DNA of 64,000 nt, taken from positions 62,001 through 126,000 of the forward strand of contig JAHDIK010000011.1 of assembly GCA_020630795.1 (NCBI GenBank). Direction: 5' to 3'. The position numbers and the translations under genes were made by a program. The DNA comes from Colwellia sp. Its GTDB lineage: Bacteria > Pseudomonadota > Gammaproteobacteria > Enterobacterales > Alteromonadaceae. Below the pieces are notes generated by a model. The model did not search any database and was not told where the DNA came from. It saw nothing but the letters and a program-made list of their open reading frames with translations. Shown here piece by piece: positions 5,881 through 10,198 of the stretch (position 1 is the stretch's first letter; each line of letters starts with the position of its first letter).

Positions 5881-6747
5881 ATGATTGAAAAAGAAATTAA
5901 AGCGCCAAGCGGTATTCCAATGATTGCTGTAATTTTGGTCTTGCAAGTGGCGATGATCGGATTAACAATTTTTGCGATGGCAAACCACATTCCGGCACTC
6001 ATTATTGGCGGCATACTTTTCAACATTATTGTTGGTATTTGTTGGGCAGGATTCTTTATGGTTAACCCCAAAGAAGCCCGCGTTATGCAGTTTTTCGGAA
6101 AATATGCAGGCACAGTACACGACACCGGCTTACGCTGGGCAAATCCATTTTATACAAAAATGCGTGTGTCTTTACGTGTTCGCAATTTTGAAAGCAGTAA
6201 AATAAAAGTAAATGATAAAAACGGTAACCCAATAGAGATTGCTGCTGTAATAGTATGGGAAGTAGTCGATACCGCAGAAGCTGTATTTGAAGTAGATGAT
6301 TACGAAGATTTTGTTTCAATACAAAGTGAGTCTGCATTACGAAATTTAGCAACAACATACGCTTATGAAAATCATGAAGACGAAGAAGGCATAACACTTA
6401 GAAGTGATCCAACTGAAATTTCAAACGCCTTACAAGTTGAAGTACAAGACCGATTACAAAAAGCCGGCGTTAAAGTGGTAGAAGCTCGTATTAGCCACCT
6501 TGCTTACTCGCCAGAAATTGCAAACGCTATGCTGCGTCGACAACAAGCAATGGCAATTATATCAGCACGCCAAAAAGTAGTTGAAGGTGCGGTTGGTATG
6601 GTTGAAATGGCATTAACAAAACTGTCTGAACGTAACATTGTAGAGCTAGATAGCGAACGCAAAGCCGCTATGGTTAGTAATCTACTTGTTGTATTATGTA
6701 GCGACGATGCAGCGCAACCTGTTGTTAACACGGGTAGTTTGTATTAA
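5881..6747 (+). CDS. SPFH/band-7 domain membrane protein
   Basis: This 288-residue protein has two N-terminal hydrophobic segments (about residues 12-38 and 40-60), followed by an SPFH domain (about 65-245). Stomatin-like features include [36 protein letters not shown] and the conserved RxxAMA stretch near residues 218-225. SPFH proteins form large membrane-associated rings or scaffolds in bacteria. The ATG at 5881 is preceded by AGGAAG. The gene sits behind the tandem TGATATCA element and is followed 126 bp later by an Arc-like DNA-binding protein, so the pair is probably co-transcribed and self-regulated. Its cellular role is unknown. Confidence 0.85.
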
Positions 6748-6873
6748 TTGCCTACTTCTCGCCTATGAATAAAGCAAGTTATTAGGTATTCAATTGTTAT
6801 GTATCAGCTACAAGAATGTTACTAAACGTGGCGCTCTTGTGGCTTGTAAGTTTATTGTTATTTGGAGTATTAA

Positions 6874-7062
6874 GTGGCTAAAAAAGCGTATCCGCTCAGG
6901 ATCAATGAAGAAATACTTTCTGCGATGCAGCGCTGGTCTGACGATGAGTTACGTAGTCTTAATGCCCAAATAGAGTATGTACTACGCGATGCCCTTAGAA
7001 AAGCTGGACGTTCGAAGCCACCTGAAATTACGCCTATTGTTGACCCTGTTGAAGATAAATAA
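6874..7062 (+). CDS. Arc-like ribbon-helix-helix DNA-binding protein
   Basis: This 62-residue protein begins with a beta-strand-like YPLRINEEI followed by two helices (LSAMQRWSDDELRSLNAQIEYVLRDALRKA), the Arc/MetJ ribbon-helix-helix pattern. The C-terminus is a short acidic, proline-containing tail. The start is GTG at 6874, chosen because GGAG lies seven bases upstream (6863-6866) and the N-terminus fits the family. It is the second gene after the SPFH protein and is the natural candidate to bind the tandem TGATATCA sites at 5836-5854. There is no toxin-like partner, so a toxin-antitoxin reading is unlikely. Confidence 0.8.
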   Translation: MAKKAYPLRINEEILSAMQRWSDDELRSLNAQIEYVLRDALRKAGRSKPPEITPIVDPVEDK

Positions 7063-7261
7063 CCCAAAAATGTAGGAACAAAAGACAACGGTTATAATCA
7101 TCTGCGATACTTTTTTACGCTCCGCTCAACTCACCAATCTTCGCGCTTACCTTTTTCCACCTCAATCAATTTTTATTATTTATTACTAATTTGAAAGTTT
7201 ATTACGTTTTAAGTTTTGAGATTAACTATTAGTACTTACCTAATATCACTTTATTTTAGGC

Positions 7262-7351
7262 AAAAAAAAGCCGATGACAGAATCATCGGCGTATTAGCTA
7301 TGAGGAAAGCTAAAGTATACAATTATTACAACAAGCGTTCGCGTTAGGAAC
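7262..7351 (-). ncRNA. Candidate small RNA downstream of polA (the spf/Spot 42 position)
   Basis: On the minus strand a predicted transcript starting near 7351 is about 90 nt long. It opens with a 5' stem-loop (GUUC/GAAC arms, 7348-7351 and 7337-7340). It then has a hairpin TAGCT/AGCTA (7308-7312 and 7295-7299 read on the minus strand) whose loop exposes UUCCUCAU, complementary to a ribosome-binding site. It ends in a perfect 8-bp GC-rich stem (7283-7290/7270-7277, 5-nt loop) followed by eight U. In enteric bacteria spf (Spot 42) occupies this place downstream of polA on the same strand. I see no primary-sequence similarity to Spot 42, so this is a positional counterpart at best. Confidence 0.55.
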
Positions 7352-7357
7352 AAGTGC

Positions 7358-7414
7358 ATTATAGAGTAACAACTCTATAAAAGTAAAGCCCAAAATGTAA
7401 TTAATTTACATTTT
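7358..7414 (-). promoter_or_regulatory. Sigma70-type promoter of the candidate sRNA with two dyads
   Basis: On the minus strand TTTACT (7382-7387) and a perfect TATAAT (7358-7363) are separated by 18 bp. A perfect dyad TTATAGAGT/ACTCTATAA with a 4-bp centre (7359-7380) covers the spacer and most of the -10 box. A second dyad, AAAATGTAA/TTACATTTT with a 5-bp centre (7392-7414), lies just upstream of -35. The dyads could be operators. The upstream one resembles a CRP site but has one base too few between half-sites. Confidence 0.55.
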
Positions 7415-7453
7415 TTGTTTCTTTATTACTTTCAGTATACTTTATACGCTTTT

Positions 7454-10198
7454 TTAGTGCGCCTCGTCCCAATTATTTCCGATTCCGGCTTCAGCAATTA
7501 ACGGTACACTCAACGACACAGCGTCGTTCATCAACTCTACAAGCTTTTTCGTTGTGTCTTCTACAATGTCTTCATGAATTTCAAAAATCAATTCATCGTG
7601 TACCTGCATTGTCATTTTAATGCGTGGGTCTTGCTGTTCTTCAATCCACTTATCTACTTCTAGCATTGCTTTTTTAATAATATCGGCCGCTGTACCTTGC
7701 ATCGGTGCGTTAATTGCCGCTCGTTCTGCACCTTTTCTTCTCATGCCATTTTTAGACTTAATGTCTGGCAAGTACAATCGACGACCAAATAAGGTTTCAA
7801 CGTAACCATTTTCGGTCGCATTTTGACGCGTGTCTTCCATGTACTTTTGCACGTTAGGGTAACGTTCAAAGTATGTGTCCATATATTCTTGTGCTTGATG
7901 ACGAGGAACATCAAGTTGCTTAGCTAAGCCAAAGGCAGACATACCGTAGATAAGACCAAAGTTCACCGCTTTCGCACTTCTACGCTGATTCGTTGTAACG
8001 TCGTCTAAATCTACTGAGAATATTTCTGCGGCAGTCGCCTTATGCACATCAAGCCCATTACTAAAGGCTGATACTAAACCAGGGTCGTCAGACAAATGCG
8101 CCATAATACGTAGTTCAATTTGAGAATAATCTATCGCGACTATTTTGTGATTAGCTGGTGGAATAAACGCTTGGCGAATTTTTCGACCTTCTTCACTTCT
8201 GATTGGAATATTTTGCAAATTTGGATCTGTTGAAGATAGTCGCCCTGTGGCCGTAACCGCTTGGTGATAAGACGTATGTACTCTACCCGTTTTAGGGCTA
8301 ACTAATAAAGGAAGCTTATCTGTGTAAGTTGATTTGAGCTTGCTTAAACCACGGTTTTCCAAAATAACTTTAGGTAAAGGATAATCTAACGCTAATTCTT
8401 GCAATACTTCCTCTGCCGTTGAAGGAGCGCCTTTCGGTGTTTTCTTAATGACAGGAATTTTTAAGTCTTCAAACAATATCTTTTGTAATTGCTTAGGCGA
8501 ACTCAGATTAAAGCTTTGCCCTGCAATGTTATGCGCTTCAATTTCTAACTCATTTAATCGAGTACCAATTGAGTGACTTTGTTGGTCGAGTAAATCACTA
8601 TCGATTAATACACCATGCTGCTCCATTCTTGCTAAAACAGACAGCAATGGCATTTCAATTTCTTCGAATACTTTTTTCTGATCTGTAGACTTTGCTAACT
8701 TAGGGTAAATAGCTTCATGTAACCTTAACGTAATATCAGCATCTTCTGCTGCATAATGTCCGGCTTTGTCTATATCAATTTGATTAAACGTTAACTGCTT
8801 AGCGCCTTTACCTGCAATGTCTTCAAAATGTACGGTTTTATAACCGAGGTACTTCTCAGCTAATGCGTCCATGTTATGGCGTGTAGCAACACTATTTAAA
8901 CAATACGATTCGATCATGGTATCAAATACAATACCCTGCATTTCAATATCATAGTGGGCCAATACATTAGCGTCGTATTTTAAGTTTTGGCCTACTTTTG
9001 CGACATTTTTGTCTTCCAATAACGATTTTAATTGCTCTAAAACCCATGCAATATCAAGCTGCTCTGGAGCGCCAACATAGTCATGTGCCAATGGTACATA
9101 GGCTGCTTTACCTACTTCTACGCTGAATGACAAACCAACAAGGTCTGCTTTCATATATTCAACGCTAGTGGTTTCAGTATCAAAAGCGAAGTAGTCTGCC
9201 GCTTTAAGCTTTTCAAGCCATTGTTCAAATGACTCTTTTGTAAAAACAATATCGTATTCAGTGTCAATATTGCTGTCTGGTGTTGATTCTTCGTCGTCAC
9301 TAGCTTCTGAAGCATCATCCGACGCTACGTCACCTTTATTTAAATCGGCAAGTAAGCGACGCAATTCGTATTTAGTATAGAGTTCTTTAAGAATTTCAAC
9401 GTTACGTTCTTTTGGTGCTAATTGCTCTGCTGTAACTGGTAATTCAACGTCTAATTTGATGGTGGCTAACTCATACGATAGTGGTAATTGTTCAAGTGCT
9501 GATCGTAAATTTTCGCCAATTTTACCTTTTACTTTGTCTGCATTTGCAATCACGTTGTCTAACGTTTCATGTTCTAACAACCATTTAACGGCAGTTTTTG
9601 GTCCACACTTTTCAACACCAGGAATGTTATCTACTTTGTCTCCCATTAAAGCCAAGTAATCAATAATTTGATCAGGGCGTACGCCAAACTTCTCAATAAC
9701 GCCTGCAACGTCTAATTCAACGTTTGTCATGGTGTTAATTAAACGAACATGCTCAGTAACAAGCTGCGCCATGTCTTTATCGCCCGTAGAAATAACCGTT
9801 TCAATACCTGCGTCACTCGCTTGTTGCGCTAATGTTCCAATAACATCATCGGCTTCTACGCCTTCTATCACAAGTAAAGGTAACCCCATTGCTTCTACTA
9901 TTTGATGTAGTGGTGCAATTTGTGTGCGTAAATCGTCAGGCATTGGAGGACGATTAGCCTTATATTCAGGATAAAGGTCGTTTCTAAACGTTTTTCCTTT
10001 AGCGTCAAACACCACCACGATGTTTCCATTCGGATAGTCTTTTTTAAGACTTCCAAGCATGTTTAAAACACCGGTAATTGCACCTGTAGATTGTCCATCT
10101 GAGGTTGATAAAGCTTGTAAATAAGGAACATGATAAGCACGAAATAAATAAGACGAACCATCGACTAAAATAAGTGGGGATAACGTTGAAGTTGGCAT
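7454..10198 (-). CDS. polA: DNA polymerase I
   Basis: This 914-residue protein has full-length PolA architecture. An N-terminal 5'-3' exonuclease (LVDGSSYLFRAYH, DVIGTLA, GDKDMAQLV) spans about residues 8-290. The 3'-5' exonuclease around 320-510 retains FAFDTETTS, so proofreading should be active. The polymerase domain carries motif A (DYSQIELRIMAHLSDD), motif B (RRSAKAVNFGLIYG) and motif C (QVHDELIFE near residue 869). It serves in Okazaki-fragment maturation and repair synthesis. A Ser/Asp/Glu-rich linker (about 295-310) joins the nuclease parts. The long gap upstream contains two DnaA boxes, and an sRNA candidate lies downstream. Confidence 0.98.
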   Translation of the reverse strand: MPTSTLSPLILVDGSSYLFRAYHVPYLQALSTSDGQSTGAITGVLNMLGSLKKDYPNGNIVVVFDAKGKTFRNDLYPEYKANRPPMPDDLRTQIAPLHQIVEAMGLPLLVIEGVEADDVIGTLAQQASDAGIETVISTGDKDMAQLVTEHVRLINTMTNVELDVAGVIEKFGVRPDQIIDYLALMGDKVDNIPGVEKCGPKTAVKWLLEHETLDNVIANADKVKGKIGENLRSALEQLPLSYELATIKLDVELPVTAEQLAPKERNVEILKELYTKYELRRLLADLNKGDVASDDASEASDDEESTPDSNIDTEYDIVFTKESFEQWLEKLKAADYFAFDTETTSVEYMKADLVGLSFSVEVGKAAYVPLAHDYVGAPEQLDIAWVLEQLKSLLEDKNVAKVGQNLKYDANVLAHYDIEMQGIVFDTMIESYCLNSVATRHNMDALAEKYLGYKTVHFEDIAGKGAKQLTFNQIDIDKAGHYAAEDADITLRLHEAIYPKLAKSTDQKKVFEEIEMPLLSVLARMEQHGVLIDSDLLDQQSHSIGTRLNELEIEAHNIAGQSFNLSSPKQLQKILFEDLKIPVIKKTPKGAPSTAEEVLQELALDYPLPKVILENRGLSKLKSTYTDKLPLLVSPKTGRVHTSYHQAVTATGRLSSTDPNLQNIPIRSEEGRKIRQAFIPPANHKIVAIDYSQIELRIMAHLSDDPGLVSAFSNGLDVHKATAAEIFSVDLDDVTTNQRRSAKAVNFGLIYGMSAFGLAKQLDVPRHQAQEYMDTYFERYPNVQKYMEDTRQNATENGYVETLFGRRLYLPDIKSKNGMRRKGAERAAINAPMQGTAADIIKKAMLEVDKWIEEQQDPRIKMTMQVHDELIFEIHEDIVEDTTKKLVELMNDAVSLSVPLIAEAGIGNNWDEAH

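Follow-up and report, generated by a model that had tools for sequence, protein, structure and literature searches.

A conserved small RNA gene beside polA, apparently of a new family, with a HexR-like promoter box and a loop complementary to prpC

The gene of Spot 42, spf, is located between polA and engB; it is repressed by CRP-cAMP, and the RNA is induced by glucose. HexR is a KDPG-sensing regulator of sugar catabolism, and prpC encodes 2-methylcitrate synthase, an enzyme of propionate breakdown.

Other small RNAs (sRNAs) have been described at the same place. In Pseudomonas, ersA lies between polA and engB (PMC8575079). The sX13 RNA of Xanthomonas is also encoded at polA, is said to be without similarity to Spot 42 and directs its C-rich loops at G-rich motifs close to starts; its authors raised the question of sRNAs at the polA locus in other bacteria (PMC3771888). 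In Aliivibrio salmonicida, VSsrna24, of about 60 nt, shares the intergenic region of spf and lies downstream of it, is repressed by glucose and was called limited to the Vibrionaceae (PMC3295665). The sibling sRNAs NmsRA/NmsRB and NgncR_162/163 of Neisseria possess a UC-rich anti-Shine-Dalgarno loop in the second stem-loop, and prpB and prpC are among their reporter-proven targets (PMC5362039, PMC9973317).

The RNA described here is encoded in a window of 64 kb, the whole stretch of DNA that was analysed. According to the published descriptions, it is similar to ErsA and sX13 in being encoded at polA, and to the Neisseria siblings in its two copies, its anti-Shine-Dalgarno loop and its candidate prp targets. 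However, sX13 folds into three stem-loops and acts independently of Hfq (PMC3771888), and the Neisseria siblings belong to another class, with polA unmentioned in PMC5362039. Among the matches listed, no description of the window RNA was found in the open-licence literature.

The sRNA gene and its conservation

Downstream of polA, the window harbours a predicted sRNA gene on the minus strand, with a start about 100 nt past the polA stop codon. An earlier note on this DNA had pointed out a candidate sRNA, unnamed and at the locus of Spot 42, with a TATAAT hexamer, a predicted transcript of 90 nt, a hairpin loop and a terminator with eight U, and all of these parts are present beside polA (Table 1). 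The promoter, TTTACT-18-TATAAT (7387..7358, minus strand), is of the sigma-70 type. The loop hairpin corresponds to UAGCU-UUCCUCAU-AGCUA, and its loop is a predicted anti-Shine-Dalgarno seed (CUUUCCUCAU including the flank). The fold of the RNA was better than that of 200 out of 200 shuffles (z -3.98). Taken alone, neither consensus scan was better than chance, with 3 promoters found vs 4.0 expected and 2 terminators vs 1.4; the gene is taken as real because promoter and RNA are conserved together, and not because of these scans.

Table 1. Features of the sRNA gene and its upstream neighbour in the window
Feature	Position	Strand	Basis or remark
Predicted sRNA transcript, about 90 nt	7262..7351	-	5' end inferred from promoter and conservation
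HexR-like box TGTAAATTAATTACA (this strand)	7396..7410	-	centre at -52 from predicted start
-35 hexamer TTTACT	7382..7387	-	consensus scan; kept as CTTTAC in relatives
-10 hexamer TATAAT	7358..7363	-	consensus scan
Palindrome TAGAGT-nnnn-ACTCTA	7362..7377	-	between -35 and -10; possible operator
5' hairpin GUUC..GAAC, variable loop	7337..7351	-	alignment covariation
Conserved single-stranded UUGUUGUAAUAAUU	7321..7334	-	conservation in copies
Hairpin with loop UUCCUCAU	7295..7312	-	fold, conservation, covariation; prpC pairing
Intrinsic terminator, stem 7290-7270 (9 bp), U8 tail	7262..7290	-	scan and covariation
polA, upstream neighbour of the sRNA, same strand	7454..10198	-	

The promoter palindrome, TAGAGTnnnnACTCTA, has no other exact match in its own genome; one mismatch is found at the second copy of the gene and at six other places, which makes eight places in total vs five for the reversed control. 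It is retained in many, not all, copies of the window RNA, and its genome matches gave no recognisable regulon. Convergent with the sRNA gene, an open reading frame of 62 amino acids lies at 6874-7063 on the plus strand; by eye it resembles an Arc-type DNA-binding protein, and it had no NCBIfam match.

The nearest named genome found was that of Pseudocolwellia agarivorans QM50, whose polA is 89% identical. The search with a stretch of 151 bp, comprising promoter and RNA, covered 40 genomes including the genome of the window; ten matched, the own one counted, so that the stretch was found in 9 of the 39 others, at E<1e-11 and with 72-87% identity. A covariance model of the window RNA built from 14 copies (R1), a check that the earlier note had proposed, revealed the RNA in 88 of 295 genomes and 18 of 52 genera of the family. 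Sixty-seven of the carrier genomes gave two matches, one gave three and twenty gave one; at least two of these twenty, the own genome (G000) and G002, hold a more diverged second copy.

An alignment of 34 matches fitted to the structure, six of them at E>0.1, had two-sided changes in 14 of the 17 stem pairs and 97.1% of the cells paired; none of 500 shuffles was as good, and sliding the pairing partner dropped the paired cells to 48% or less. On the unfitted alignment of 14 rows (A3), six of the 17 pairs had two-sided changes. All four pairs of the 5' hairpin showed such changes on the fitted alignment and none did on A3, in which this stem hardly varies. The conservation of stems and promoter among relatives, on which the earlier note had made its candidate depend, is therefore found, and the unit is in all appearance a real and conserved sRNA gene, apparently of a new family of a known kind.

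Copies of the RNA and relation to Spot 42

In the genome of the window, engB lies away from polA, and a second copy of the sRNA gene (G000:C20:34112-34241, outside the window) adjoins it. The same division of two copies between polA and engB was present in six of eight genomes inspected (G000, G002, G005, G009, G015 and G023), with the engB-side copy up to about 2 kb from engB. G014 and G003 break this rule, as their first copy is without polA in the stretch examined. In G010, a single copy lies between polA and a convergent engB, in the order of Spot 42 loci, and in G001 one copy was seen, by polA. In a Thalassotalea locus (L067), two tandem, near-identical copies are found beyond polA, at 8890-8983 and 9362-9454. 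A tree of 32 RNAs, with 5 of its 29 inner branches well supported, was compatible with a single clade of the polA-type copies (p 0.47).

No Rfam family reached its gathering score anywhere in the window. At the sRNA site, the six Rfam matches up to E=10 did not include Spot 42 (RF00021), in agreement with the remark of the earlier note that the sequence does not resemble it. The best sub-threshold match at the site was frnS, with 23.6 bits against a cut-off of 60, and was taken as chance.

RF00021 was found in 85 of 197 genomes of the order, 59 of them above the cut-off. In the family it was found in 57 of the 295 genomes, belonging to 16 genera, with only one genome above the cut-off, and it finds nothing in G000 at E<=0.001. 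The only genus common to both RNAs is g45, through one weak Spot 42 match (G292, E 9.5e-4), which lies far from the copies of the window RNA in that genome. Many genomes of the family are without either RNA at the thresholds used, in searches whose stricter filters at this scale lose weak matches.

Similar to Spot 42, the window RNA is encoded beside polA, toward engB, it has a HexR-like box near -52, and a role in carbon metabolism is presumed. However, its body does not match RF00021, and the genera of the two RNAs differ except for the one weak overlap. Judged by its sequence, the window RNA is not Spot 42.

The HexR-like box and the neighbouring sRNA X

HexR is published with the motif TGTAATTAAATTACA, and sites that lie upstream of a promoter are regarded as activating (PMC11906056). 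The box of the window differs from this motif by one mismatch on the plus strand and by two on the minus strand; in the genome of 3.9 Mb, a single mismatch is found at four places, the box included. The second place lies between hexR (NF008451, 525 bits) and zwf; of the other two, one precedes a cysJ-like gene and one is at a locus that by eye resembles a polysaccharide synthesis locus. Sites with two mismatches are present at gapA and gltB. Nonetheless, the motif with up to two mismatches is not enriched (39 places vs 47 for the reversed pattern), and two-mismatch counts carry no weight because the reversed control gives more.

In relatives, polA-type copies retain the box. With four mismatches or fewer at its place, it was present in 29 of 30 copies with a CCUC loop, the exception being L214, and in one of seven copies with a CCCC loop (L034), all seven of which possess a TTTAGAG-type box; these counts come from 38 rows, of which one misfit row was dropped.

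The box is also seen in front of Spot 42. The best HexR-like match falls between -50 and -53 for 55 of 70 Spot 42 promoters, and the mean best distance is 3.1 vs 5.5 in shuffles. At -50 to -53, two mismatches or fewer were found in 25 promoters and four or fewer in 59, where many promoters come from related genomes and many of the four-mismatch matches are not clearly above shuffles. Promoters with a HexR-like match upstream of GTAGGGTA include those of L230, L231, L243, L185 and L173. These matches suggest control of Spot 42 itself by HexR. The box of the polA-type copies may stem from spf or may have arisen in place. The open-licence literature found to join HexR with Spot 42 consists of Neisseria work only. 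The Neisseria sRNA Bns1 was described as unchanged on hexR deletion, and as raising, not lowering, the prp operon (PMC4423775).

Beyond Spot 42, on the same strand and toward engB, a second predicted sRNA, here called X, was present at 28 of 30 Spot 42 loci of the family, which were the best-scoring ones of the RF00021 search (exceptions L218 and L243). X was discovered because all five sub-threshold R1 matches outside the Colwellia-like group (L172, L175, L176, L186 and L125; E 0.12-0.91) fall on it, downstream of Spot 42 and on its strand. It is also found in Rheinheimera (L123, 9285-9371) and Arsukibacterium (L125, 9133-9218), and L220 (1774-1859) is another example. In X, the box TTTAGAGTAAATACTT and a TATAAT-like hexamer precede a 5' hairpin, which is followed by ACCCUGUUGAU, a hairpin whose loop contains UUCUCCCC, and a terminator. 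In 11 loci checked, neither the window RNA nor X matched Rfam at gathering score.

Ten loci of Pseudoalteromonas (L073, L074, L075, L077, L079, L083, L100, L107, L108 and L127) possess X and are without the Spot 42 start, GTAGGGTA, within 1.5 kb of polA; their X has a longer linker and no upstream TTTAGAGTAAA box. In Photobacterium marinum (L084), a promoter with GTTTAGAGTAATTACTTTA is located at the place of X downstream of Spot 42, and the sequence that follows looks different.

X is similar to VSsrna24 in its place downstream of spf, and the matching region of three Vibrio loci has UCUCUCCC or UCUCCC before a terminator, a C-rich core that is alike by eye. However, VSsrna24 is about 60 nt long, and a narrow covariance model of the X body (R2) had no match up to E=5 in the Vibrio loci L116, L119 and L129. 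R2 finds one of the 197 genomes of the order at E<=0.001, which is no census of X.

Promoters and RNAs of 25 X loci, with the terminators left off, were combined into a profile that was searched against 0.54 Mb of loci of the Colwellia-like group. All of its ten best hits fell on box-bearing copies of this group; the best had E 3e-6, seven were at E<0.05, and the remaining three (E 0.07-0.46) span the promoter only. The engB-type copies, to which these hits belong, possess an X-type promoter box, TTTAGAGTAAA-CTT. The window copy, which has the HexR-like box in place of this X box, was not hit. The reverse profile, built from nine box-bearing copies, puts X loci first (best E 2.4e-4); the fifth hit falls in L185, where an X-like unit is seen. 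The bodies of the window RNA and X alone gave no significant mutual match between sequence profiles. A common layout of 5' hairpin, UGUUG and AGCU hairpin with a C-rich loop is visible in an alignment of the two, and is weak in covariance models; R2 finds only one group copy of the window RNA, at E 0.031. Because the bodies alone give no significant match, the kinship rests on promoter, RNA and place together, and from these the window RNA appears related to X.

Candidate targets and origin of the window RNA

The pattern TGAGGAAAG followed by ATG was found at 48 places in 12 genomes, vs 9 for the reversed pattern. It is present at prpC in five of these genomes (G000, G023, G167, G180 and G218), and prpC is the only gene at which it was seen in more than one genus, open-frame starts being judged by eye. 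A prpC gene was detected in eighteen out of twenty carrier genomes searched. Their prpC start regions pair with the loop at a mean of -14.0 kcal/mol, vs -8.7 for 305 control genes; the Mann-Whitney p value of 5e-9 is not a clean one, because the rows are related and not independent. TGAGGA is present at prpC in 11 of the 18 genomes. The pairing is weak in G003, G230, G229 and G002, and TGAGGA is missing at prpC of G001 and G002, which are both other members of the genus of the window. G006 has TGAGGAA at prpC, though R1 found no RNA there.

Against the same carrier prpC genes, the loop of X remained at control level (-9.4 vs -9.5), and the window loop gave -8.3 with prpC of 20 Spot 42-type genomes, vs -8.9 for controls. 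Three genomes of g18, which possess X instead, have a prpC with AACGGGGAGAA, complementary to the loop of X (-20.6 to -24.8), and a prpB with CAAACGGGGA, the complement of the same loop; in one of them, G383, prpC carries the full AAACGGGGAGAAG, also complementary to it. Over the 20 Spot 42-type genomes, the X loop gave p 0.22 with prpC. In the 12 genomes where X was seen, the mean with prpC was -13.5 vs -10.6 (50 controls, p 0.10), and with prpB, in nine of the 12, it was -16.1 (p 5e-4, after the fact and with related rows). As a target in the Colwellia-like group, prpB was rejected, since carrier genomes did not surpass those that lack the RNA (p 0.11, 18 vs 17). The prp operon is thus a candidate target in which prpC is best supported, by evidence that is good but not decisive.

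The loop had been described in the earlier note as directed against ribosome-binding sites, and the complementarity to prpC fits this prediction. The note had also thought of sugar metabolism in agar degraders. A link to central carbon metabolism is supported by the HexR-like box and prpC; a special tie to agar degraders is not, the RNA being present in 18 of 52 genera. Its suggestion of a diverged or unrelated riboregulator was right in that the RNA is not Spot 42, and missed both the usual two copies, on the polA and engB sides, and the kinship with X.

The match at prpC might reflect a conserved Shine-Dalgarno sequence only, the sRNA being real and its true targets others. Common descent keeps orthologous start regions alike, the motif occurs in G006 although no RNA was detected in that genome, and it is missing in G001 and G002, which belong to the genus of the window. 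However, the complementarity at prpC reaches beyond the GAGG core, prpC and prpB of the three g18 genomes with X carry complements of the loop of X, and the window loop pairs with prpC of Spot 42-type genomes no better than with controls, so that we regard this explanation as rather unlikely. The unit could also be mainly the 3' end of polA, with a promoter that serves little and an RNA that is a by-product of the polA mRNA. Since no other minus-strand terminator is found between polA and 7290 (scan of 6500-8000), the polA mRNA may indeed end at the sRNA terminator. Nevertheless, conservation is found in promoter, box, 5' hairpin and loop region, whereas the terminator stem varies in sequence, and a second copy with its own promoter lies away from polA; a mere by-product is therefore highly improbable.

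A further alternative is an ortholog of Spot 42 whose body diverged in place beyond recognition, without help from X. This would be in agreement with the same place and strand beside polA, with the box at -52, where 55 of 70 Spot 42 promoters have their best match, and with the single copy of G010 in the order polA, RNA and convergent engB. Nonetheless, G000 has no RF00021 match at E<=0.001, none is seen at the site up to E=10, the engB-side copies combine a like RNA body with the promoter box of X, and X stands next to true Spot 42 in relatives. The idea, which came from synteny and promoter, was given up because X is seen beside true Spot 42, and we consider it improbable.

We judge it probable, instead, that the window encodes a trans-acting sRNA of an undescribed family, a duplicate at the place of Spot 42 that has a HexR-like box and a loop blocking the Shine-Dalgarno sequence of prpC. 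This family would have had its ancestral place between Spot 42 and engB. A duplication in the Colwellia-like group would have followed, one copy staying near engB and the other taking the place on the polA side, and Spot 42 would have been lost. The polA-side copy would be transcribed from its own sigma-70 promoter under the HexR-like box, and therefore its level should follow the KDPG-sensing regulator; HexR may bind this box, as an activator or as a repressor. The exposed loop UUCCUCAU would cover Shine-Dalgarno sequences, possibly with the help of Hfq, and so block the translation of catabolic genes, prpC first, which is how the NmsR/NgncR siblings of Neisseria act on prpB and prpC (PMC5362039, PMC9973317).

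A more specific reading joins these steps, and we propose it tentatively, at somewhat less than an even chance. Spot 42 would have been displaced by the duplicate of its neighbour, under a HexR-type box that is found near -52 in many Spot 42 promoters as well, and the loop and the prp sites would have changed together between lineages, AAACGGGGAGAAG with CUUCUCCCCGUUU and AUGAGGAAAG with CUUUCCUCAU.

One lineage seems to have swapped Spot 42 for another RNA at the polA locus. The surprise, if true, would be that Spot 42 was displaced by the duplicate of a neighbouring sRNA gene at one of the best known sRNA loci. The data further indicate that X, a predicted sRNA not listed in Rfam, accompanies Spot 42 in many genera, and that many Spot 42 promoters carry a HexR-like box of their own. 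The window RNA comes with a candidate regulator, HexR, and a candidate target, prpC, and the variants of its loop and target form a natural series.
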